64,000 bases of DNA from Pantoea rwandensis (GTDB lineage Bacteria; Pseudomonadota; Gammaproteobacteria; Enterobacterales; Enterobacteriaceae): contig NZ_CP009454.1 in assembly GCF_000759475.1 (NCBI RefSeq), positions 3,410,001-3,474,000 of the forward strand, read 5' to 3'. Position numbers and translations under genes: made by a program. Shown piece by piece: positions 4,650 through 50,627 of this stretch; the first letter of the stretch is position 1; every line of letters starts with the position of its first letter. The notes beneath the pieces are model-generated. The model saw only the letters and a program-made list of their open reading frames with translations, did no database searches and was not told the origin of the DNA.

Positions 4650-6335
4650 ATGAGCGAAACTTTATCTCAGGCTGTTGCCCGCGAAATCCGTGCGCCGCGC
4701 GGTAATGAACTGCATTGTGCGAATTGGTTGATTGAAGCGGCTTACCGCATGATCCAGAACAACCTCGATCCTGATGTGGCTGAGCGCCCGGAAGATCTGG
4801 TGGTATACGGCGGTATCGGTAAAGCGGCACGCAACTGGGAGTGCTTTGAGCAGATTCTACGTTCACTGCGTGCGTTACAGCCCGAAGAAACCTTGCTGAT
4901 CCAGTCAGGCAAACCGGTGGGTGTGTTCCGTACCCATGCCGATGCACCACGCGTCTTGCTGGCTAACTCCAACCTGGTGCCGCACTGGGCTAACTGGGAT
5001 CATTTCCACGAGCTGGATAAAGCCGGCCTGATGATGTACGGCCAGATGACCGCCGGTTCCTGGATCTACATTGGTGCGCAAGGCATCGTGCAGGGCACCT
5101 TTGAAACCTTCGCCGAAGCGGGTCGCCAGCATTATGACAGCGATTTGAGCGGCCGCTGGATCCTGACAGCAGGCCTGGGCGGCATGGGCGGCGCGCAACC
5201 GCTGGCTGGCGTGCTGGCCGGTGCCAGCGTGTTAGCCATTGAGTGCCAGGAATCACGTATCGATTTCCGTCTGCGCACCCGTTACGTCGACCACAAAGCT
5301 TATACCCTAGACGAAGCGCTGGATCTGATTGAGAAAGCCACCAAAGCCAAACAGGCGATTTCTGTTGGTCTGCTGGGCAACGCCGCCGAAATCGTGCCGG
5401 AGTTGGTGAAGCGTGCCAAAGCGGGCGGCATGAAACCGGATATCGTCACCGATCAGACTTCCGCACACGATCCGATCAATGGCTATCTGCCAGTGGGTTG
5501 GGATCTGGATCGCTGGCAGGCCGAGCGCGTCAGCAATCCTAAAGCTGTTGAGAAAGCGGCACGTGCGTCGATGGCGGTGCATGTGCAGGCGATGCTCGAC
5601 TTCCATCATATGGGCGTGCCGACCGTGGATTACGGTAACAACATTCGTCAGGTGGCGCTGGATGAAGGGGTGAAAAACGCCTTTGATTTCCCAGGCTTCG
5701 TGCCCGCCTATATTCGTCCACTGTTCTGTGAAGGCAAAGGTCCCTTCCGCTGGGTGGCGCTGTCAGGCGATCCGGAAGACATCTACAAAACTGACGCCAA
5801 GCTGAAAGAACTGTTCCCGGAACACAAGAACCTGCATCGCTGGCTCGACATGGCGCAGGAACGTATTGCCTTCCAGGGGCTACCAGCGCGCATCTGCTGG
5901 TTGGGTCTGGGCGAGCGCCATAAAGCCGCGCTGGCATTCAACGAAATGGTGCGCAACGGTGAGCTGAAAGCGCCTATCGTCATCGGCCGTGACCACCTCG
6001 ACTGTGGTTCCGTGGCGTCACCCAACCGTGAAACCGAAGCGATGAAAGACGGTTCGGATGCGGTGTCTGACTGGCCGCTGCTGAATGCCCTGCTGAACAC
6101 CGCAGGCGGCGCGACCTGGGTGAGCCTGCATCACGGCGGCGGCGTTGGCATGGGCTTCTCGCAGCACTCCGGCGTGGTGATTGTCTGCGACGGCACCGCC
6201 GAAGCGGATGCGCGTCTCGGCCGCGTGCTGTGGAACGATCCGGCGACGGGCGTGATGCGTCACGCGGACGCGGGCTATGAACTGGCACAGAGCTGTGCCA
6301 AAGAGCATGGCTTGAATCTGCCGATGCAGAAGTAA
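4650..6335 (+). CDS. hutU: Urocanate hydratase
   Basis: This protein of 561 residues hydrates urocanate to 4-imidazolone-5-propionate with tightly bound NAD+. It shows the NAD-binding [13 protein letters not shown] segment around residues 170-182 and the YGNNIRQVA motif of urocanases. Two adjacent ATG codons (4647 and 4650) could start it. The second has the better spacing from the AAGGA ribosome site that overlaps the hutH stop. It is cotranscribed with hutH and followed by a good terminator hairpin. Confidence 0.96.
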
Positions 6336-6380: not shown

Positions 6381-6406
6381 CGTCTTAGTTCAGCCGCCAA
6401 ACCTTC

Positions 6407-6490
6407 TCTCTACTCTCTACTCTCTACTCTGTACTCTCTACTCTCTACTCTCTACTCTCTACTCTCTACTCTCTACTCTCTACTCTCTAC
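6407..6490. repeat. Heptanucleotide tandem array (TCTCTAC x12)
   Basis: Twelve consecutive copies of TCTCTAC; the fourth copy reads TCTGTAC and the others are identical. The unit length is not a multiple of three and the array sits between genes, just past the hutU terminator. It is the first of three unrelated short arrays in this gap and is likely length-variable by slippage. Confidence 0.95.
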
Positions 6491-6608
6491 TCAATGTTTC
6501 GTGCCATATCCCGGACTGACAACCATAGATTGCCGCATAAAACTCGTGAATCCCCCCTTTAACCCTTCAGCCCCTACAATCCCTCATTCCCTCATTCGCT
6601 CATCCCCT

Positions 6609-6784
6609 CAGTCTCTCAGTCTCTCAGTCTCTCAGTCTCTCAGTCTCTCAGTCTCTCAGTCTCCCAGTCTCCCAGTCTCCCAGTCTCCCAGTCTCCCAGT
6701 CTCCCAGTCTCCCAGTCTCCCAGTCTCCCAGTCTCCCAGTCTCCCAGTCTCCCAGTCTCCCAGTCTCCCAGTCTCCCAGTCTCT
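6609..6784. repeat. Octanucleotide tandem array (CAGTCTCY x22)
   Basis: Twenty-two units of 8 bp: six CAGTCTCT, then fifteen CAGTCTCC, then one CAGTCTCT. The block-wise distribution of the two variants suggests that the middle block expanded by slippage from a single changed unit. The plus strand is strongly pyrimidine-rich across the whole gap. Confidence 0.95.
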
Positions 6785-6793
6785 CAATCACTC

Positions 6794-6828
6794 AATCCTT
6801 AATCCTTAATCCTTAATCCTTAATCCTT
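6794..6828. repeat. Heptanucleotide tandem array (AATCCTT x5)
   Basis: Five perfect copies of AATCCTT directly follow the octanucleotide array. They are followed by the 12-bp palindrome GCAGCATGCTGC at 6833-6844. The remaining 145 bp up to the next gene hold its presumed promoter; I saw no other coding signal there. Confidence 0.93.
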
Positions 6829-6989
6829 AAATGCAGCATGCTGCGGAGCATATTCCATTCCGCTATAGCCTATAGCCAAATTATTCCGTTCCACGATAGA
6901 CGCCGCCCTGCGCTTACCACTACAGTGGAGACATCGCGTTATGTGTCAGAAAAATCGCAGCAACTGCTGCTGATGGAGAGCCTAACTTT

Positions 6990-12556: not shown

Positions 12557-13516
12557 ATGACCGATTTTCCTCAGCCGCAGGGCGGCAACGAGATGCCCCG
12601 TTTCGCCGGCCGTGGCACCATGATGCGTTTGCCTGCTGCCGAATCCCCTGCCGATCTTGATGTCGCGTTTGTAGGCATTCCGCTGGATATCGGCACGTCG
12701 CAGCGTAGCGGCACGCGCTATGGTCCACGCGCCATTCGCGCTGATTCCGTGATGATTCGCCCGTATAACATGGCGACGGGCGCAGCGCCTTTTGATTCGT
12801 TGCGCGTCGGCGATCTCGGCGATGTGCCCATCAATACTTACAGCCTGCTGAAGTCGGTCGATATCATCGAAAACTATTATACCGAGCTGAACAATTGGCC
12901 GATTATCCCGTTAACGCTCGGGGGCGATCACACGCTAACGCTGCCGATTTTGCGGGCGCTGGCGAAGAAGCACGGGCCGATGGGCCTGATCCACATTGAC
13001 GCGCACACCGATACTAACGATGAGATGTTCGGCGAAAAGATCGCCCACGGCACCACATTCCGCCGTGCGGTAGAAGAAGGCCTGCTCGACTGCCAGCGCG
13101 TGGTGCAAATTGGTCAGCGCGCTCAAGGCTACGCCGCCGATGATTTCCAGTGGGGCGTCGATCAAGGCTTCCACCTGGTGCCGGCCGAGCAGTGCTGGTA
13201 TCGATCCATGACACCTCTGATGGCCGAAGTGCGTGCGCGTATCGGCAACGGTCCGGTGTATCTCAGCTATGACATCGACAGTTTCGATCCTGCATGGGCA
13301 CCCGGCACCGGTACGCCAGAAGTGGGTGGATTGACCTCAATGCAGGGACTGGAGATTGTGCGCGGCTGTCGCGGACTCAATCTGGTCGGTGGCGATCTGG
13401 TCGAAGTGTCACCGCCGTACGATATCAGCGGCATGACCTCCCAGCTGGCAGCCAATATCCTTTATGAGATGCTGTGCGTATTGCCCGGCGTCCGTTACAC
13501 AGAGAAAAAAGCATGA
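12557..13516 (+). CDS. Agmatinase/guanidinobutyrase-like ureohydrolase
   Basis: The 319-residue protein is an arginase-superfamily enzyme that splits urea from a guanidino compound. Manganese ligands are visible in GGDHT (122-126), DAHTD (148-152) and the SYDIDSFDPAWAPGTGTPE signature (Asp239, Asp241, Asp244). Overall it resembles agmatinases, guanidinobutyrases and guanidinopropionases rather than arginase or HutG. The ATG at 12557 is preferred over the in-frame GTG at 12554 because the AAGGAG site is better spaced. Its stop overlaps the start of the dehydrogenase. Substrate choice between agmatine and a guanidino acid cannot be decided by eye. Confidence 0.85.
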   Translation: MTDFPQPQGGNEMPRFAGRGTMMRLPAAESPADLDVAFVGIPLDIGTSQRSGTRYGPRAIRADSVMIRPYNMATGAAPFDSLRVGDLGDVPINTYSLLKSVDIIENYYTELNNWPIIPLTLGGDHTLTLPILRALAKKHGPMGLIHIDAHTDTNDEMFGEKIAHGTTFRRAVEEGLLDCQRVVQIGQRAQGYAADDFQWGVDQGFHLVPAEQCWYRSMTPLMAEVRARIGNGPVYLSYDIDSFDPAWAPGTGTPEVGGLTSMQGLEIVRGCRGLNLVGGDLVEVSPPYDISGMTSQLAANILYEMLCVLPGVRYTEKKA

Positions 13517-14598
13517 CACAACAGAATTTGGTGTTTCCGGCGCGCGTGCTGCGCGGCGCGGGTGTGATCAATCAGCTGGGCGAGATTTGCGCGGGGCTGG
13601 GCAAACGCGCTCTGCTGATCGGCGGCCATCAGGCACTGCAGTCGGTGGAAGCGCAGGTGCGCGCTCAACTGCTGGCGGCGAACGTGACGCTGCTGGCGCA
13701 GGAGTGGTTTGGTGGTGAGACCTCGATTAACCAGATCAACCGTCTGGCCGCCATCGCCACCGAGCTGCAAGCAGAGGTGATCATTGGCGTCGGCGGTGGT
13801 AAGTCGCTGGATACGGTGAAAGCCGTGGGGGCGCAGTTGGGGCTGCCGTTTATCACCATCCCGACCATTGCCGCCACCTGTTCAGCAGTGACGCCGTTGA
13901 CCATTCGCTATGATGATAACGGCAATTTCTTCGATATTTTCCCGCTGCCACAGGCACCCGCGGCAGTGATCATCGATAGCGAGTTGCTGGCTAAAGCCCC
14001 TGCTCGCTGGCTGGCTGCTGGTTTGGGCGATACCCTGGCTAAATGGTATGAGTTTCGTGCAGTGAGCGTCAGCCATCCGGCGCGTGAAGGCAATGCATTG
14101 TCATCATTGGCTCATAGCCAGATTTGCTATGACGTGATCGCGGAACACGGCCCGGCGGCCTATGCGGCGGTGCTGCGCGGCGAGAGCAGCGCCTCATTGG
14201 ATCAGGTGCTGGATGCGATCTTTACCTGGGCCGGATTGACCTCGCTGATGAGCAACGGCGCCCATGCGGCAGCATCCCATGCAATTTATGAAGGATTTAC
14301 CTTCTGCGATAAGACGCGTGAGTTCGGTCATGGCCTGTTGGTTGGCTTTGGCAACTTGTGCCTGTTGGCGCTGGAAGATCGCAGCGATGAAGAGGTACTG
14401 GATGAGATGCGTCTGGCGCGCGATTGCGGTGTGCCATTGACGCTGCATGAGATTGCCGAGTTGGATGATGCCGAGCTGGCGCTGATTGTGCGTGAATCCG
14501 TGCATGCACCGGACATGGAGAATATGTCGGTGGCGGTCACCGAAGCCCGCCTGCTGGCGGCGATGCAGCGGATTGAAGGGTTGGCTGATCGGGTTTAA
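13513..14598 (+). CDS. Iron-containing alcohol dehydrogenase family protein (YbdH/GldA-like)
   Basis: This 361-residue protein has the GGGKSLD nucleotide-binding motif at 94-100 and the HAISHA-like metal region (HAAASHAIYEG, HGLLVGFG) of the glycerol dehydrogenase branch. E. coli YbdH (HcxA), a hydroxycarboxylate dehydrogenase, is the closest family I recognise. The start overlaps the upstream ureohydrolase stop (ATGA), so the two are coupled and share a pathway. A plausible role is reducing or oxidising the acid or aldehyde left after urea release, which is inference. Its stop codon lies inside the perfect palindrome CGGGTTTAAACCCG (14590-14603). Confidence 0.82.
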   Translation: MTQQNLVFPARVLRGAGVINQLGEICAGLGKRALLIGGHQALQSVEAQVRAQLLAANVTLLAQEWFGGETSINQINRLAAIATELQAEVIIGVGGGKSLDTVKAVGAQLGLPFITIPTIAATCSAVTPLTIRYDDNGNFFDIFPLPQAPAAVIIDSELLAKAPARWLAAGLGDTLAKWYEFRAVSVSHPAREGNALSSLAHSQICYDVIAEHGPAAYAAVLRGESSASLDQVLDAIFTWAGLTSLMSNGAHAAASHAIYEGFTFCDKTREFGHGLLVGFGNLCLLALEDRSDEEVLDEMRLARDCGVPLTLHEIAELDDAELALIVRESVHAPDMENMSVAVTEARLLAAMQRIEGLADRV

Positions 14599-14622
14599 AC
14601 CCGGGGGTGAGTGCTTGTGCGG

Positions 14623-14827
14623 GCCGTAGCACCGCTGCTGCTGCCGGGCAGTCCTCGCGCCGCTGACGCGGTGCCCTCGGCTTCCACGTCGTGCCGACGG
14701 ACCGTTCGGGGATCGACCATCCCTGGTCGGCCCCGAACTGATCCACGCATCCCTGCGTGGATCTCCTGGCCCAACGTAAAAGCCTCAGCGCTGCGGATAG
14801 CCCTTGCAGCATCAGCGGTGCTACGGC
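14623..14827 (-). repeat. Structured extragenic element, copy A (minus orientation)
   Basis: The copy is closed by a 15-bp perfect inverted repeat (14623-14637 with 14813-14827, GCCGTAGCACCGCTG) that continues imperfectly inward. It holds a 9-bp hairpin with loop ATCCCT (14740-14763) and a nested hairpin with loop ATCCCT (14704-14738, outer arms GTTCGGGG/CCCCGAAC). On the minus strand both loops read AGGGAT. It also contains the reverse complement of the conserved block GCGTCAGCGGCGCGAGGAC seen in copies B and C. The stems differ in sequence from those copies but pair as well. Confidence 0.85.
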
Positions 14828-15183
14828 CTCAAATATTGTGCCCCTTTCAATAACATTCACTTCAGCTCATCAGCCGACTGGGAAATTTGGCTCATTGCTG
14901 CGTGGATTTCCCTGCCCAACGTAAAAGCCTCAGCGCTGCAGATAGCCCTTGCAGCAGCAGCGGTGCTACGGCCTCAAATATTGTGCCCCTTTCAACAACA
15001 TTCACTTCAGCTCATCAGCCGACTGGGAAATTTGGCTCATCGCTGCGTGGATTTCCCAGCCCAACGTAAAAGCCTCAGCGCTGCGGATAGCCCTTGCAGC
15101 ATCAGCGGTGCTTCGGCCTCAAATATTGTGCCCCTTTCAACAACATTCACTTCAGCCCATCAGCCGACTGGAAGATCTGGATC
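14770..15183. repeat. 145-bp tandem repeat, three copies
   Basis: Units begin at 14770, 14915 and 15060, each starting CCCAACGTAAAAGCCTCAGC; the period is exactly 145 bp and the last copy is truncated near 15183. Copies differ by only a few bases. Each unit contains the right arm of structured element A plus about 90 bp of downstream sequence. The array therefore looks like tandem amplification starting inside that element. I see no convincing gene in it, although chance open frames run through all copies. Confidence 0.92.
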
Positions 15184-15243
15184 AACATGCCCGCTATGGA
15201 CTTAAACCCGGAGGTCTTTAACAGCAAGCACGATGGTTAATGA

Positions 15244-15442
15244 GCAGGCTGGGGGCGCTTTGGCGCAGGCAATCCGCAGCGCCGAACAGAGTGAGTCTGC
15301 CAGGATAGCCCGCAGGGACGCGGGCGAAAGGCGGGGCGGCACAGGGATGTGCCATCCCCGCCGTTCCGTCAGGCAGACGAACGAAGTGAGGGCACCGCGT
15401 CAGCGGCGCGAGGACGCCAGCGCCAAAGCGCCCCCAGCCTGC
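15244..15442 (+). repeat. Structured extragenic element, copy B
   Basis: A perfect 23-bp inverted repeat (15244-15266 with 15420-15442) closes the element. Inside are a hairpin with arms GCCCGC/GCGGGC and loop AGGGAC (15308-15325) and a nested hairpin 15330-15362 (arms GGCGGGG/CCCCGCC and GGCAC/GTGCC, loop AGGGAT). The flanking blocks, from GGCAATCCGCAGCGCCGAAC at the left to GCGTCAGCGGCGCGAGGAC at the right, are nearly identical to copy C 22 kb away. About 135 bp between its right end and the next gene show no other feature. Confidence 0.9.
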
Positions 15443-15577
15443 GTCGCCACCTGCGGACAACAACATCATTACCTGCGAACTACCACTTCAGCTGTGAATT
15501 AATCTGCGAGCATGCAACTGCATCAGCCAGCCTCAATATTTTCTACAGATTCAGGTGCAAAATTCAGCACCCGAACC

Positions 15578-16939
15578 CTATGCACGAGCCAGCAGCGCCA
15601 CCAGTTCCTGCACATCCGCGACGTCATCCAACTCCATACAAATCGCTTCCAACTGTTCAACCTGCTCAACCGGCAATACACGCCCCGCTAAGCTACGGTA
15701 TTTAGCCAGCAGCGCTTCAAGACTTAACGGATTGGCGGGCGCACCCGACGGCACCGGCACATGCTGCTGCCACTGCTCGCCCTGCTGGGTTTCAATCCGC
15801 ACCCACGGCTCGTCATCGCGCCCCTGCTGCTCATCAATCATCAGCTCAATCCGCGCCATAAACGCATCAACCTGAGGGTGCAGACGTTTGGCATCATCGT
15901 AACTGGCTAACTCAGCGGAGCCGTACAACGCTCGTGCTGCCAGTGCATACGGCAGGCTCATTTGTGCACTTGCCAGGCTTTTCAGCTCACGTCCGCCACA
16001 CATCTCCAGCAGGAACGGATTTAATCCCACCAGGATACGTTCAATCTGTGCAGGCTGTACCGAATGCTGCGTCAGCATCAGGTTCAAGGCATCCACCGCA
16101 GAATGGGTTCCACGACAGGCGGCATACGGCTTGATCGAGCAGCGTGCCAGCTTCCACACCACGCCAAGATCGGCGGTTAACGCAGCGGGTTGCTGTGTTT
16201 CAGATGCAAGGGTTTGCAGGAATCCGCCCCACTTCGCTTCGAATACCGCCGATGGCCCATTAATACCGCGCTGCGCCAGTTGCGCTGCCTGCACCCCACC
16301 TTCAGCTGCACGTGCGGCATGCAGCTTTTTGGTGTGCGAACCGTCGTGAATAAAGCCCCACAACCCACCGCTAAAGCTGGCGGCAATGCCCATGGCCGAC
16401 GCGCACTGTTCACGATCCAGCTGCAGCAGTGAACACACCGCCGCTGCGGCACCAAACACGCCACAGCTGGCGGTGGAGTGCCAGCCTGCGCCGTTGTGCG
16501 CAGAGTAGCCGCCGCAAGCTTCCAGCACCCGGCGTCCGACGTCATAACCGATCACCATCGCCACCAGCAGCGTCTGGCCGTCAACCGGCTGCGTCGCCAA
16601 AGGCAGCGCAGCCAGAATAGCGGGAATCACCACCGCGCCCGAGTGATCGCAGCCGCCGGTATCATCCAGCTCATACATATGCGCAGCCACGCCGTTGAGC
16701 CATGCCGCCTGGCGTGGACTCACCTGCTTTGCACTTCCCCACACTTGTGCCTGCTGATGCCCACCTTCTGCGAGCGCCAATAGCAGACATTCGCGCCAGA
16801 TTGGGCTGTCGCTGCCCGCCAGTGAAGCCCCGAGCGTATCCAGCAAATGGCGTTTTGCCTGTTCGACCAGCGCATCAGGCAGCTGTTCAAAACCTGTTTC
16901 GGCGATAAATGCCGCCAGTTGATCAAGCGAACTGCCCAT
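15578..16939 (-). CDS. MmgE/PrpD family protein
   Basis: The 453-residue protein spans the full MmgE/PrpD family, with an N-terminal helical domain (HLLDTLGASLAG near residue 31) and the conserved LDDTGGCDHSGAVVIPAILA region around 90-110. Known members include 2-methylcitrate dehydratase, cis-aconitate decarboxylase and iminodisuccinate epimerase. It is the last gene of a seven-gene operon and its start overlaps the upstream deacetylase by 17 bp. With a C-N lyase and amino-acid transporter in the same operon, an epimerase or hydratase acting on an aspartate-like substrate is a reasonable guess. The reaction itself is not proven. Confidence 0.82.
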   Translation of the reverse strand: MGSSLDQLAAFIAETGFEQLPDALVEQAKRHLLDTLGASLAGSDSPIWRECLLLALAEGGHQQAQVWGSAKQVSPRQAAWLNGVAAHMYELDDTGGCDHSGAVVIPAILAALPLATQPVDGQTLLVAMVIGYDVGRRVLEACGGYSAHNGAGWHSTASCGVFGAAAAVCSLLQLDREQCASAMGIAASFSGGLWGFIHDGSHTKKLHAARAAEGGVQAAQLAQRGINGPSAVFEAKWGGFLQTLASETQQPAALTADLGVVWKLARCSIKPYAACRGTHSAVDALNLMLTQHSVQPAQIERILVGLNPFLLEMCGGRELKSLASAQMSLPYALAARALYGSAELASYDDAKRLHPQVDAFMARIELMIDEQQGRDDEPWVRIETQQGEQWQQHVPVPSGAPANPLSLEALLAKYRSLAGRVLPVEQVEQLEAICMELDDVADVQELVALLARA

Positions 16940-36303: not shown

Positions 36304-37371
36304 ATGGCCGGCAAGCTCAGGATGGACGAAATTTCAGCAATTACGGGCTACTCGGTCAGTACCGTTTCGCGCGTGCTGAGCGGAAAATCCTACACCAGTG
36401 ATAAGGCGCGTGAGGCGATTGTCGACTGCGCCCGCCGACTGGGCGTCTTGCAGGAAATGGTGAGTGGTCGTCTGCTGATCAATGACATTGTGGTATTTGC
36501 GCCGGGACGCACCTTCACGCCACGCGGCGATCACTTTTATCATGAGGTGACACGCGGGATAGCCGAGGCATGCGCATCGCATGATGTGCATATCAGCTAT
36601 TGCCCGCTGGAAGAGCAGCGCGCCGATGTGAAGCTGTTTCTGGAGAAGGCGAGTGCGAAAAACATCAGCGCCATCATCATTATCGGTATCGACGATCAAG
36701 CGATCTTTAGCTTGGCGGCGTCACTCGGCAAACCCTGTGTGCTGATTAACTCTCGTGATAAAGATATGCGGCTGGATGCGGTGTCCCCCGATCATCGGGC
36801 GATTGGTTTCAGCGCTATGCAGCATCTGTTTGAACAAGGCCACCGCCGGGTGTTGACCGTCACCTGTCTGCGACGTGAGACGCTATTTTTGCGTCTGGAA
36901 GGGATCAAAGACGCTTACCGCCATTTTCATATGCCGTTTAATGCGCAGCAGGATTTGATTGTCATCGAAGCTTACTCCTCGCAGGACACCGAGATCGCAC
37001 TGAATCACTGGCTGGATACACACCCACGCGATCAATGGCCTGATGTGATTTTGCCCGGCGGCAAAGGCATTATTACCGGCGTGCAGAATGCACTGCTGTC
37101 ACGCGGCTTGCGCATTCCCGAAGATATTTCGCTGATGACGACAGATTTAGCCAGCCGGCTGGAAGGATCGCCAGAGATGCCCATCACCGGCTTTGCGGTG
37201 CCGTGTCGCGAGCTGGGTTATGAGGCGATCCAACTGATCCAGAACCGCCTTAATCGTCCGCAGTCGTCGATTTACAATCTGTTGTTGCAGGGAAAACTGG
37301 TGGATCGCGGTACGGTGGCGAATGCCACTCGCCATGCCGCGCGTGAGGAGATCCGTAACGCGTTTCCGTGA
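36304..37371 (+). CDS. LacI family transcriptional regulator
   Basis: The 355-residue protein starts with a LacI helix-turn-helix (MDEISAITGYSVSTVSRVLS, residues 7-26, with the hinge region up to about 60) and continues as a periplasmic-binding-protein-like sensor. It is divergent from the dehydrogenase/GPH transporter operon, which it most likely represses in the absence of the sugar. It reads toward a convergent chemoreceptor gene, with structured element C in the gap. Confidence 0.87.
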   Translation: MAGKLRMDEISAITGYSVSTVSRVLSGKSYTSDKAREAIVDCARRLGVLQEMVSGRLLINDIVVFAPGRTFTPRGDHFYHEVTRGIAEACASHDVHISYCPLEEQRADVKLFLEKASAKNISAIIIIGIDDQAIFSLAASLGKPCVLINSRDKDMRLDAVSPDHRAIGFSAMQHLFEQGHRRVLTVTCLRRETLFLRLEGIKDAYRHFHMPFNAQQDLIVIEAYSSQDTEIALNHWLDTHPRDQWPDVILPGGKGIITGVQNALLSRGLRIPEDISLMTTDLASRLEGSPEMPITGFAVPCRELGYEAIQLIQNRLNRPQSSIYNLLLQGKLVDRGTVANATRHAAREEIRNAFP

Positions 37372-37533: not shown

Positions 37534-37724
37534 CTGGTGTCGCGCAGGGGCAGGCAATCCGCAGCGCCGAACAGAGTGAGTCTGCCAGGAGAGACCGCAT
37601 GGATGCGGTCGAAAGGCTGGGCTGGAACAGGGATGTTCCATCCCAGCCGGTCCGTCAGGCGGACGAATGACGTGAGGGTACCGCGTCAGCGGCGCGAGGA
37701 CACTCGGCCCCTGCGCGGCACCAG
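37534..37724 (+). repeat. Structured extragenic element, copy C
   Basis: An 18-bp inverted repeat with one G-U-type mismatch closes it (37534-37551 with 37707-37724, arms CTGGTGTCGCGCAGGGGC and GCCCCTGCGCGGCACCAG). Inside are a GACCGC/GCGGTC hairpin with loop ATGGAT (37593-37610) and a nested hairpin 37615-37648 (GGCTGGG/CCCAGCC and GGAAC/GTTCC, loop AGGGAT). It fills most of the 429-bp gap between convergent genes. I see nothing else in that gap. Confidence 0.9.
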
Positions 37725-37800: not shown

Positions 37801-39696
37801 TTACAACTTAAAGCTCTGCACCACCAGCTCCAGCTGCACGCTCTGCTCTTCCATCGCGCGCGCGGCAGCCGACACCTGCTCGACCAGTGCGGCGTTCTGC
37901 TGGGTGCTGCCATCCAGCTGGGTGATCGCCTGGTTAACCTGCTCGATGCCCATACTCTGTTCGCGGCTGGCAGACATGATTTCACTCATCAGGGTGGTCA
38001 CACTGCTCACGCCCTGCATCAGCTCATCCATGGTCTGTCCGGCTTGTTCCACCAGTTGGCTGCCGGTATCGATATTCGCCACCGACTCCTCAATCAGCTT
38101 CTTAATCTCACGCGCCGAGTTCGCGGAACGTTGCGCCAGATTACGCACTTCTGACGCCACCACGGCAAACCCACGACCCTGCTCACCCGCTCGGGCCGCT
38201 TCCACCGCCGCGTTAAGCGCGAGGATATTGGTCTGGAAGGCGATGCTGTCAATCACACTGATGATATCCACCACTTTACGGGATGAGTGATTAATCGCCC
38301 CCATGGTGGTGACCACCTGACGCACCACATCCGTTCCGCGCGCCGCCACCTGCGAGGCGCCGTCCGCCAGTTGATTGGCGTGGGTGGCATTGTCGGCGTT
38401 CTGACGTACCGTGCCGGTCAGTTCTTCCATTGAAGCCGCAGTTTCAACAATCGAACTGGCCTGCGACTCGGTGCGAGCAGACAGATCGGCGTTGCCGCTG
38501 GCAATTTCACGTGAGGCAGAGGTAATTGCCAGTGCGCTGTCGCCCACCTGACGCATCAACCCCTGCAGATACTCAATAAACTGGTTAAAACTTTGCGCCA
38601 CCGCGTTAAATTCCGGGCTGTTGCTGGCAGGCAGACGCTGAGTTAAATCCGCGCCGCCAGTCGACAGCGCTTCGATATTGCGATTCAGCAGGCTAAGACG
38701 TTTCATCATGGCGCGCACAAAGCCGAGCAGCACCAGCAGCAGAATCACCGCCAGCGGGATCTGCACCAGGCCGAGGCGAGTCAGCATGCTGTGGGTTTGC
38801 GCATCCAGCAAACTGGACGGCACATCGCTGGCGAGATACCACGGGCTACCGGCAATCGCCTGCAGGAACAGCGTGTGCTCGCCATCTTCGCCTTTAAAGG
38901 TGGTTTGCGTAGGCTGATTACCTGCCTGGCTCAGCAGACCTTTCAGCGCACCCGCCATCGGCAGTTGCGTATCCGCGAGATTTTCCAGCTTCGGTGCGCC
39001 TTCCAGCAGTGCGGCGTTGCCCACCACTTTGCCATCCGCTTCAACGATCAATACACGTCCGTGAATGGCGTCGCCCATCTGTTTCGCCAGTTGGTTGAAG
39101 AAACCGAGCGTGACGTCGATGGTTGATACCCCCCACACCGTGCCATCACGATAAATCGCCATCGCACAGTTGGTTCGCGGCTGCGGGCTGGCCGCATCCT
39201 GATAGGCTTTAGCCCAGGCACATTGCCCTTTGGCCGCGGCCATACCGTCTTTGTACCACGGCTGCTCCCAGTATTTGTCCGCTGCATCGGAGTTCCAGTA
39301 GGTGTTGACCTGTAACTGGTTGCTGGCGTTACGGGCGAAGAACGAACTGTCTTTTTCCTTCGCCGGATCGCGACGATTAGGCAGCGGCCAAATACCGCCG
39401 CCAAACACGTTGCTGTCCTGATACTGGTTCACCAGCGCAGGTAGCAAGTTGTCGATGGCCGCGCTATCCATCACGCCTGCGGCTTCGGTAATGGCACGTT
39501 GCTGCGCCTGCACGCGGTTCATCTGCTCGACGATACGTCCCGCCAGGCCATCCACTTCATAGCGCACCAGACGGCTTTCGTTTTGCGTTAACTGCGGAGC
39601 GATAAACTGATTGATCACCACCACGGTAACCAGCATCAGCACCACGAAAAATGCGACCAGCGTCGCGGTAAAACGAGATTGTGTAGTTTTTAACAT
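37801..39696 (-). CDS. Methyl-accepting chemotaxis protein
   Basis: The 631-residue chemoreceptor has a transmembrane helix at about 10-33, a periplasmic dCache-type sensor (about 35-290, with [15 protein letters not shown] and [12 protein letters not shown]), a second helix near 300-320, a HAMP region and a signalling domain with the hairpin tip [20 protein letters not shown]. It lacks the C-terminal NWETF-like CheR tether and ends VVQSFKL, so adaptation probably depends on other receptors. The ATG at 39696 was chosen because it begins just before the first helix. A sigma-28-like promoter lies upstream. Confidence 0.93.
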
Positions 39697-39737
39697 CGAT
39701 GTGCCCTTACCCTGGTTGGCGAGTTGCCTGATCGAGG

Positions 39738-39764
39738 TTAACGGCGTGTTGCAGGGGAACTTGA
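39738..39764 (-). promoter_or_regulatory. Sigma-28 (FliA) promoter of the chemoreceptor gene
   Basis: On the minus strand, TCAAGTTC, an 11-base spacer and GCCGTTAA fit the FliA consensus TAAAGTTT-N11-GCCGATAA with few mismatches. The -10 element is 41 bp before the start codon. This places the receptor in the flagellar late-gene class. Confidence 0.7.
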
Positions 39765-39871
39765 GGTGCGCCAGATCACAAAAATGCAAATAGTTGATTT
39801 AGGTGATCATTAGGCGGGTGACTAACGTTGCGCTTACTGAGTCGCGTGCGGGCAACCGCCCGCAGAGAGGG

Positions 39872-42366: not shown

Positions 42367-42408
42367 GGTGTCTGGATGATGAGCTGATTGATGTGGAAGG
42401 CATAAATG

Positions 42409-42670
42409 CCAACCCTACAAACCCGGCAAGCAGAGCATTGCAGGAGCAGCACTCCGGCCAACCCTGCAAAACCTGGCAAGCATGGCGTTGTAAGTTCAGC
42501 ATAAATGCCAACCCTGTAAAATCTGGCAAGCAAAGCATTGCAGGATCAGCACTCAGGCCAATCCGGCAAAACCTGGCAAGCATGGCATTGTCAGATCGGT
42601 TTTTAGGTCAACCTGACAACACCCCGTCAGCATAGCATTACAGGGACAGCATTCCTGCTGACCCTGTGCC
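42409..42670. repeat. 50-bp tandem repeat of REP-like hairpins
   Basis: Units begin at 42409, 42458, 42508, 42558 and 42608 with a partial sixth at 42658; the period is 49-50 bp and copies are diverged. Neighbouring units pair as small hairpins, for example TTGCAGG at 42438 with CCTGCAA at 42463, and TTGTCAG at 42588 with CTGACAA at 42613. The first unit starts with the REP-like GGCATAAATGCCAACCCTAC. The array fills the gap between bglX and the oxygenase gene. Confidence 0.88.
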
Positions 42671-50485: not shown

Positions 50486-50627
50486 CGTGTCAAAAAAATC
50501 CGGTAAGGAGTTTTGCGCCGTGTTTAAGACACAGGCCGCGCGCATCAAACCAGACGGGATGCGGGCTGGCAGCAGCATAATACGCGCTTATCTGCGAAAT
50601 TTCTTAGGTAGATTGTTTCTGAGCGTT

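Follow-up and report, generated by a model that had tools for sequence, protein, structure and literature searches.

Proposed carriage of TwoAYGGAY RNA modules by terminator-targeting transposon-like units in Pantoea, and their candidate role in CsrA docking

The structured intergenic element at 15244-15442 of a 64,000-nucleotide stretch of the Pantoea rwandensis genome (hereafter the window) belongs with two further copies that resemble the Rfam family TwoAYGGAY (RF01731). We propose, with a probability of roughly 0.5 and on the strength of sequence comparison, that these modules are the cargo of terminator-targeting, MITE-like units and have been kept as 3'-UTR RNAs that would dock CsrA. The modules fall into two subtypes, A and B; copy 1 (B) and copy 2 (A, the element under study) form one back-to-back pair, separated by a 145-bp tandem triplication, while copy 3 is a solo A, and both sites lie between convergent genes (Table 1).

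Table 1. Modules, hairpins, repeats and neighbouring genes in the window. Bit scores labelled R1 refer to a model of the modules made in this analysis.
Feature	Position	Strand	Evidence
Module B with outer inverted repeat (copy 1)	14622..14828 (first-pass annotation: 14623-14827)	minus	RF01731 48.3 bits over core 14696-14768; arms I8; R1 76.6 bits at 14681-14779
Module B hairpin 1	14740..14763	minus	sense loop AGGGAT at 14749-14754; sequence reading and fold
Module B hairpin 2	14704..14738	minus	sense loop AGGGAT at 14719-14724; sequence reading and fold
145-bp tandem triplication (spacer and 5' half of module B)	14748..15182	no strand	repeat search
Partial B modules inside the triplication	14890-14960, 15034-15105	minus	nhmmer matches
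Module A with outer inverted repeat (copy 2, element under study)	15244..15442	plus	arms I4 96%; RF01731 41.8 bits; R1 97.5 bits at 15290-15385
Module A (copy 2) hairpin 1	15308..15325	plus	loop AGGGAC at 15314-15319; sequence reading and fold
Module A (copy 2) hairpin 2	15330..15362	plus	loop AGGGAT at 15343-15348; sequence reading and fold
Solo module A with outer inverted repeat (copy 3)	37534..37724	plus	RF01731 50.6 bits at 37586-37667; R1 102.3 bits at 37575-37671
Copy 3 hairpin 1	37593..37610	plus	loop ATGGAT at 37599-37604; sequence reading and fold
Copy 3 hairpin 2	37615..37648	plus	loop AGGGAT at 37629-37634; sequence reading and fold
Iron-containing alcohol dehydrogenase gene, left of copies 1 and 2	13474..14598	plus	ORF; PF00465 101.6 bits
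MmgE/PrpD family gene, right of copies 1 and 2	15578..16939	minus	ORF; PF03972 211.4 bits
LacI-type regulator gene, left of copy 3	36304..37371	plus	ORF; PF13377 59.0 bits
Methyl-accepting chemotaxis protein gene, right of copy 3	37801..39789	minus	ORF; PF00015 180.5 bits

The first-pass annotation had described a dispersed, structured and covarying element, possibly a functional RNA, for which it could name no Rfam family, and had listed membership of an already named repeat family among the findings that would refute it. The description stands, with RNA as the probable nature; the lack of a family does not, as a cmscan of the window against Rfam placed copies 3 and 1 above the 43-bit gathering cut-off of RF01731 and copy 2 just below it, which rules out a novel family without an Rfam match and is a refuting result of the kind the annotation had listed. 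All three align to the two-hairpin core of the model only (positions 43-127, 43-116 and 43-128), and its outer stem (1-42, 129-168) found no alignment in the window copies; one other copy in this genome aligns over positions 1-168 at 40.2 bits. RF01731 was catalogued in 2010 as a probable RNA of the human gut, gamma-Proteobacteria and Clostridiales, according to the available text of that survey (Weinberg 2010, PMC2864571).

Reading the sequence bore out the three copies where the first-pass annotation had placed them, copy 1 on the minus strand and copies 2 and 3 on the plus strand, together with the stems it had listed. For copies 1, 2 and 3 respectively, these are GATCCACGC, GCCCGC and GACCGC in hairpin 1, GTTCGGGG, GGCGGGG and GGCTGGG in the outer part of hairpin 2, and CGACC, GGCAC and GGAAC in its inner part. 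The loops were likewise as described (AGGGAT in hairpin 2 of every copy; AGGGAT, AGGGAC and ATGGAT in hairpin 1), as were the long outer inverted repeats, both 96% identical between arms (I4, 15244-15270 with 15416-15442; I8, 14622-14644 with 14806-14828). In the core, a stem encloses hairpin 1 and hairpin 2.

The triplication also holds two more partial B modules, which the first-pass annotation did not report. The 5' half of module B is partially duplicated, up to near hairpin 1, at more than one locus (window 14748-15182; L033 4870-4934), perhaps through slippage at the hairpin or as the trace of an ancestral longer unit. Other tandem arrays lie beside modules of this genome (L033 about 5236-5390 and L032 about 5100-5290, of a AGCAGTTAAGC-type unit and a 34-nt unit). 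Elsewhere in the window we noted a microsatellite-like array of an 8-nt unit at 6537-6829 (about 24 overlapping register copies), an adjoining one of a 7-nt CTCTACT-type unit at about 6389-6507, 50-nt tandem repeats at 42400-42668 (four overlapping register copies, 65-79% identity) and, on the minus strand at 50495-50584, an Rfam RF03039 Peptidase-S11 RNA (57.1 bits; cut-off 34.8).

The cores of all three copies folded more stably than each of 200 shuffles (z -6.2, -6.4 and -6.3), and the two antisense strands tested did so as well (z -6.4 and -7.6), so that folding energy alone has no power to choose the strand. Covariation, which had been claimed from the three window copies, held up in larger sets. 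Among 37 diverse copies, two-sided change was seen in 24 of 29 pairs (0 of 500 shuffles reached this, and controls with slid partners gave at most 16), with a score of 0.447 against at most 0.115 for slid controls. Among 125 distinct copies it was seen in 25 of 29 pairs (two-sided cells numbered 729, slid controls giving at most 192; score 0.507, slid controls at most 0.110), and among 34 copies from loci of other families in 26 of 29 (score 0.517 against at most 0.083), both of these alignments having been fitted to the model and thus leaning towards its structure, which holds for alignments A3, A4 and A5 (A3 includes 150 of 152 matches). Searches with the local models were run on 96, 38 and 23 selected sources. 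Shuffles and covariation controls together rule out chance hairpins.

The constant part of the loops is GGA. Both loops carry it in all three window copies, the exact AYGGAY occurring only in hairpin 1 of copy 3, and in 121 of the 125 distinct copies, where the G, G and A columns have entropies of 0 to 0.12 bits and the directly flanking bases 1.3 to 1.6; copies at shared sites retain GGA in both loops in 49 of 49 cases, and the other-family set in only 22 of 34. The fuller CsrA/RsmA consensus is built around ANGGA. Paired ANGGA motifs in hairpin loops, as expected of a CsrA/RsmA-binding RNA, are present in all three window copies, and this genome encodes both CsrA and CsrB. ANGGA is given as the CsrA-site pattern in the available text of a paper that deals with other CsrA-related sRNAs (PMC9788540), and CsrA binding was proposed for TwoAYGGAY in 2014, with Clostridia in mind (PMC4333381, as its available text has it). 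RF01731 and CsrB share an Rfam clan (CL00106); the gathering scan of the 64-kb window gave no match to RF00018 (CsrB), and model R1 gave none to the CsrB locus of this genome (L249) at E 0.01.

Further copies, which the first-pass annotation had expected in related genomes, are abundant there. RF01731 is present in 36 of 60 genomes searched (this one included; 31 of 36 of the same genus) with up to 28 copies per genome, and R1 has 14 matches in this genome and 50 in the richest of 36 genomes. A search with a pattern for the conserved 3' part turned up 119 stretches; those listed, 80 in number, are from strains of Pantoea, from Erwinia sp. S63 and from one strain under the name Enterobacter cancerogenus. 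Strict filters left matches in 18 of the 274 genomes of a class-wide sample. All 41 matching plasmid records are from Pantoea; a plasmid-only location is ruled out by the copies in this genome, a single 4.33-Mb contig. Phage origin was likewise rejected, window positions 15225-15470 having no match in 50,697 phage records at E 1e-5.

Comparison with relatives indicates that the modules travel within larger units. In one genome (G018) a unit of roughly 550 bp recurs that consists of an A module on the minus strand, a spacer and a B module on the plus strand, bounded by TAATGCTTGTCAGTTAAG and CTTAACTGACAAGCATTA or near variants and often flanked by direct repeats; the same kind of A-B unit occurs on Pantoea plasmids. 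The suggestions of a mobile passenger or a 3'-end element made from the window alone thus came near the evidence and were incomplete, as there are two subtypes that in relatives are usually joined back to back in a larger mobile unit. Matching terminal repeats bound a 1,421-bp (1.42-kb) insertion sequence (IS) present in eight copies in this genome, the ends being common to module units (L192, L196, L198, L206) and ISs (L184, L194, L199, L204). Its 438-aa product matches PF13006 (Nterm_IS4, 107.6 bits), PF01609 (DDE_Tnp_1, 82.6 bits) and, with 286.9 bits at a cut-off of 115, the NCBIfam model of the IS4 family; it shares 56% identity with the annotated E. coli IS4. We infer from the shared ends that the IS4-type transposase moves the module units. 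Short module-free units with the same ends also exist, and modules are multi-copy and polymorphic in presence within a species. A target duplication of 8-14 bp accompanies 38 of 66 units bounded by terminal repeats, and by our criterion the other 28 have none. At the window sites we saw no target-site duplication and no terminal repeats above chance (best matches with 7-8 mismatches, null fractions 0.20-0.57; locus L002, '++', is left out of the tally that goes with this test), so that the case for a mobile origin of the window copies is their homology with intact units at other loci. In this genome, one terminal end is kept by the copy at L031, with 3 mismatches.

When the flanks of units were rejoined, the insertions proved to lie in the loops of intrinsic terminators, as in the example AAAAACGCCGCATTTCTGCG | IS | CGCATTTCTGCGGCGTTTT from this genome, whose eight IS copies all show this arrangement, with duplications of 10-13 bp. 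Of the 38 sites with a duplication, among which one site is counted in three strains (L171-L173), a stem of 6 bp or more is centred on the duplication in 30, and an A or T tract accompanies it in 25, against 271 and 39, respectively, of 4000 random positions outside units. The full test of stem plus tract was passed by 9 of the 10 ISs and by 16 of the 28 module units; it was not passed at 13 of the 38 sites, several of which lie in dispersed Pantoea palindromes such as GGTCGCCATAAATGGCGACC. Empty sites complete the comparison: at the ugpC/chemotaxis site, the sequence runs on uninterrupted in five P. agglomerans and five further Pantoea records (P. vagans, Pantoea sp. Lij88), with an intact terminator read in one record (L267), and the site is filled by both modules in two strains and by B only in one. 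One of the IS sites of this genome is uninterrupted in genome G017, at 96% identity. Targeting of terminators as a property of all IS4 elements was rejected: by eye, the single IS4 copy of E. coli K-12 is not in an obvious terminator, four P. ananatis records represent one weakly palindromic site, and no obvious terminator is seen for the copy in Serratia symbiotica. In one IS copy (L184 1501-2921), a terminator-like hairpin stands near each end; such hairpins might restore termination after the host terminator has been split.

Comparison of sites also revealed a strict orientation of the paired modules. Among 130 distinct module sites, those with two modules are '-+' in 69 cases, '--' in 2, '++' in 1 and '+-' in none; 50 sites hold solo modules, and others carry more than two. 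Gene context at the 130 sites is convergent in 86, tandem in 40 and divergent in 4, with convergent gaps making up 16% of control intergenic bases; genes were called here with a simple ORF caller, sites that lacked a called gene on each side at up to 700 bp were dropped, and orthologous sites of different species were counted separately. On annotated plasmids, five of six distinct sites are convergent (three of the eight records show one site). In distant families, 11 of 12 multi-module loci begin '-+', the twelfth being the '++' locus L002, and the terminal repeat described above was matched there no closer than with 5 mismatches. Module pairs of other gammaproteobacterial families (L268-L277; G326, G216) are embedded in another long inverted repeat (GGACACCCC ... 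GGGGTGTCC adjoining CCAAGAAAACC), so the cargo appears to be carried by more than one backbone.

Once inserted, the modules are conserved. At shared sites they were more alike than the DNA around them in 61 of 68 comparisons (identity medians of 95.9% and 90.5%), which are not independent, being drawn from 16 module sets, and for which pairs with flanks at least 98.5% identical were dropped and the flanks are largely coding. The window pair is common to three other loci (L063, L087, L229). At the L031 site, the module is nearly unchanged in four genomes with the remaining intergenic DNA scrambled, and one lineage has a compensatory change in hairpin 2. Across 464 pair positions in 16 ortholog sets, 411 were invariant, 20 two-sided paired, 7 one-sided paired and 28 had a broken member, a position being able to count in two of these classes; the L053/L138 module A set was omitted and the S32 A set split (L117 and L137 carry a different A subtype). 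The best ortholog exceeded the best paralog in 24 of 34 tests, with five ties and five losses (three in P. formicae, one in P. rwandensis, one in P. rodasii), species labels being limited to loci in the 80 listed of the 119 stretches, the loci of this genome and L229. There is very little difference among the A copies of P. formicae and P. rwandensis, and gene conversion or replacement may account for part of the module conservation and of the block changes.

These observations can be joined into a mechanism. Each module would form a junction with two hairpins that display in their loops ANGGA, the core of a CsrA/RsmA site, which could be enough to bind a CsrA dimer per module. A non-autonomous MITE-like transposon with IS4-family ends would, in Pantoea and Erwinia, carry the back-to-back pair (A minus, B plus) as cargo, and its insertion into a terminator loop would split the terminator between two, mostly convergent, genes and expose the element to read-through from both. 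An incoming transcript would then cross the near module in antisense and produce the far one in sense, exactly one per '-+' pair, and from either side the mRNA would gain a GGA-hairpin 3' end without a promoter in the element. Old copies, such as those in the window, would lose their transposon ends while the module is kept under selection as a 3'-UTR CsrA-docking RNA, acting as a decoy or as a stabiliser of its own mRNA.

Alternatively, the pair could encode free-standing CsrB-like sRNAs, a central bidirectional promoter driving two short divergent RNAs with one module each. The back-to-back layout, in which the two modules have their 5' ends turned towards each other, the absence of '+-' among two-module sites and the recurrence of '-+' in other families would all suit such transcripts, as would the Rfam clan shared with CsrB. 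Solo modules are common, however, and nothing like a sigma-70 promoter turned up when two representative stretches, 14560-15560 of the window and 2650-3380 of L171, were scanned with a simple consensus that is blind to other promoter types. Together with the read-through geometry this favours 3'-UTR read-through RNAs; we regard separate sRNAs as unlikely. The placement between convergent genes and inside terminators, with very stable folds, could also be that of a purely structural 3'-end element, an mRNA stabiliser or attenuator like REP-type palindromes that replaces the split terminator and in which the GGA loops are incidental. That GGA is the unchanging part while stems and other loop bases vary, and that no terminator-like site was found in window 14560-15560, make this quite unlikely.

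We find it quite improbable, too, that the module is selfish or inert cargo, serving the transposon (for instance in binding or expressing its own machinery) or nothing at all and persisting by copying. Multiple copies, polymorphism within species, module-free units that imply an optional cargo, and the near-identical A copies of P. formicae and P. rwandensis are what copying would give, but at insertions shared between species the modules are mostly better kept than their surroundings, both against largely coding flanks and amid the scrambled intergenic DNA at L031. Least probable of all, and in our judgement very improbable, are hairpins acting in DNA, the inverted repeats forming cruciforms for transposition or recombination. 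Both strands fold about equally well and the partial tandem duplications end at hairpin 1, as cruciforms might lead one to expect; the ends used in transposition, though, lie elsewhere, at the terminal repeats, GGA is conserved on one strand, and on the sense strand GU pairs outnumber AC mismatches by 49 to 21 in the first and larger set (4 to 9, the opposite direction, in the other-family set), so a cruciform as main function is less likely.

If the preferred reading, a transposon-borne 3'-UTR module that docks CsrA, is true, TwoAYGGAY would gain a dispersal mechanism, a genomic address (split terminators between mostly convergent genes), a strict pair orientation and a candidate ligand; a transposon would be tolerated by entering stop signals, be transcribed without a promoter and give its host ready-made binding sites for a global regulator. 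More tentatively still, and as a possibility on the doubtful side, terminator-targeting transposons may have seeded Pantoea and Erwinia with up to about 50 such modules, of which read-through from either side would make one in sense and many would have been selected, the resulting dispersed, CsrA-sequestering network coupling many operons to the Csr system. The RNA family itself, listed since 2010 without a demonstrated function, and the CsrA proposal of 2014 were already known (the latter from the available text of PMC4333381); added here are the covariation and GGA-loop counts, the back-to-back orientation, the MITE-like carrier, the terminator targeting and the post-insertion conservation. 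A link of TwoAYGGAY to transposons or terminators was not found in the literature searched, which took in a minority of subscription papers and some sources in part.

Among the closest known systems, RF01731 shares the sequence and structure of the two-hairpin core and GGA in both terminal loops; the window loops differ in being mostly AGGGAY rather than AYGGAY, with the outer model stem unaligned, and the available text of the RF01731 papers (PMC2864571, PMC4333381) describes neither a transposon cargo nor a back-to-back pair in terminators. CsrB/RsmB and the RsmX/Y/Z sponge RNAs have in common with the modules GGA-in-loop hairpins expected to hold CsrA, but CsrB of this genome is a single 306-nt gene whereas the modules have two sites each and many dispersed copies. 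Like the bacterial MITEs ERIC, Correia/CREE, RUP, BOX and SPRITE, the units are short and intergenic with inverted-repeat ends, and would yield structured transcripts able to affect mRNA; the main text of the review of these elements (PMC10969869) mentions none of CsrA, IS4 and Pantoea, and its available passages describe no protein-docking cargo RNA. With IS4-family elements that use palindromic targets (ISRm22 in REP elements, PMC1525189; the target arms of an IS4 subgroup, PMC2266710), the ISs share an IS4-type transposase, a palindromic target and a duplication of about 10-14 bp, going by the available texts, of which the main text of PMC2266710 lacks the word 'terminator' and PMC1525189 has it once, about REP elements. 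The targets found here differ in being mostly intrinsic terminators, which would thereby be added to the palindromic targets reported for IS4-type elements.
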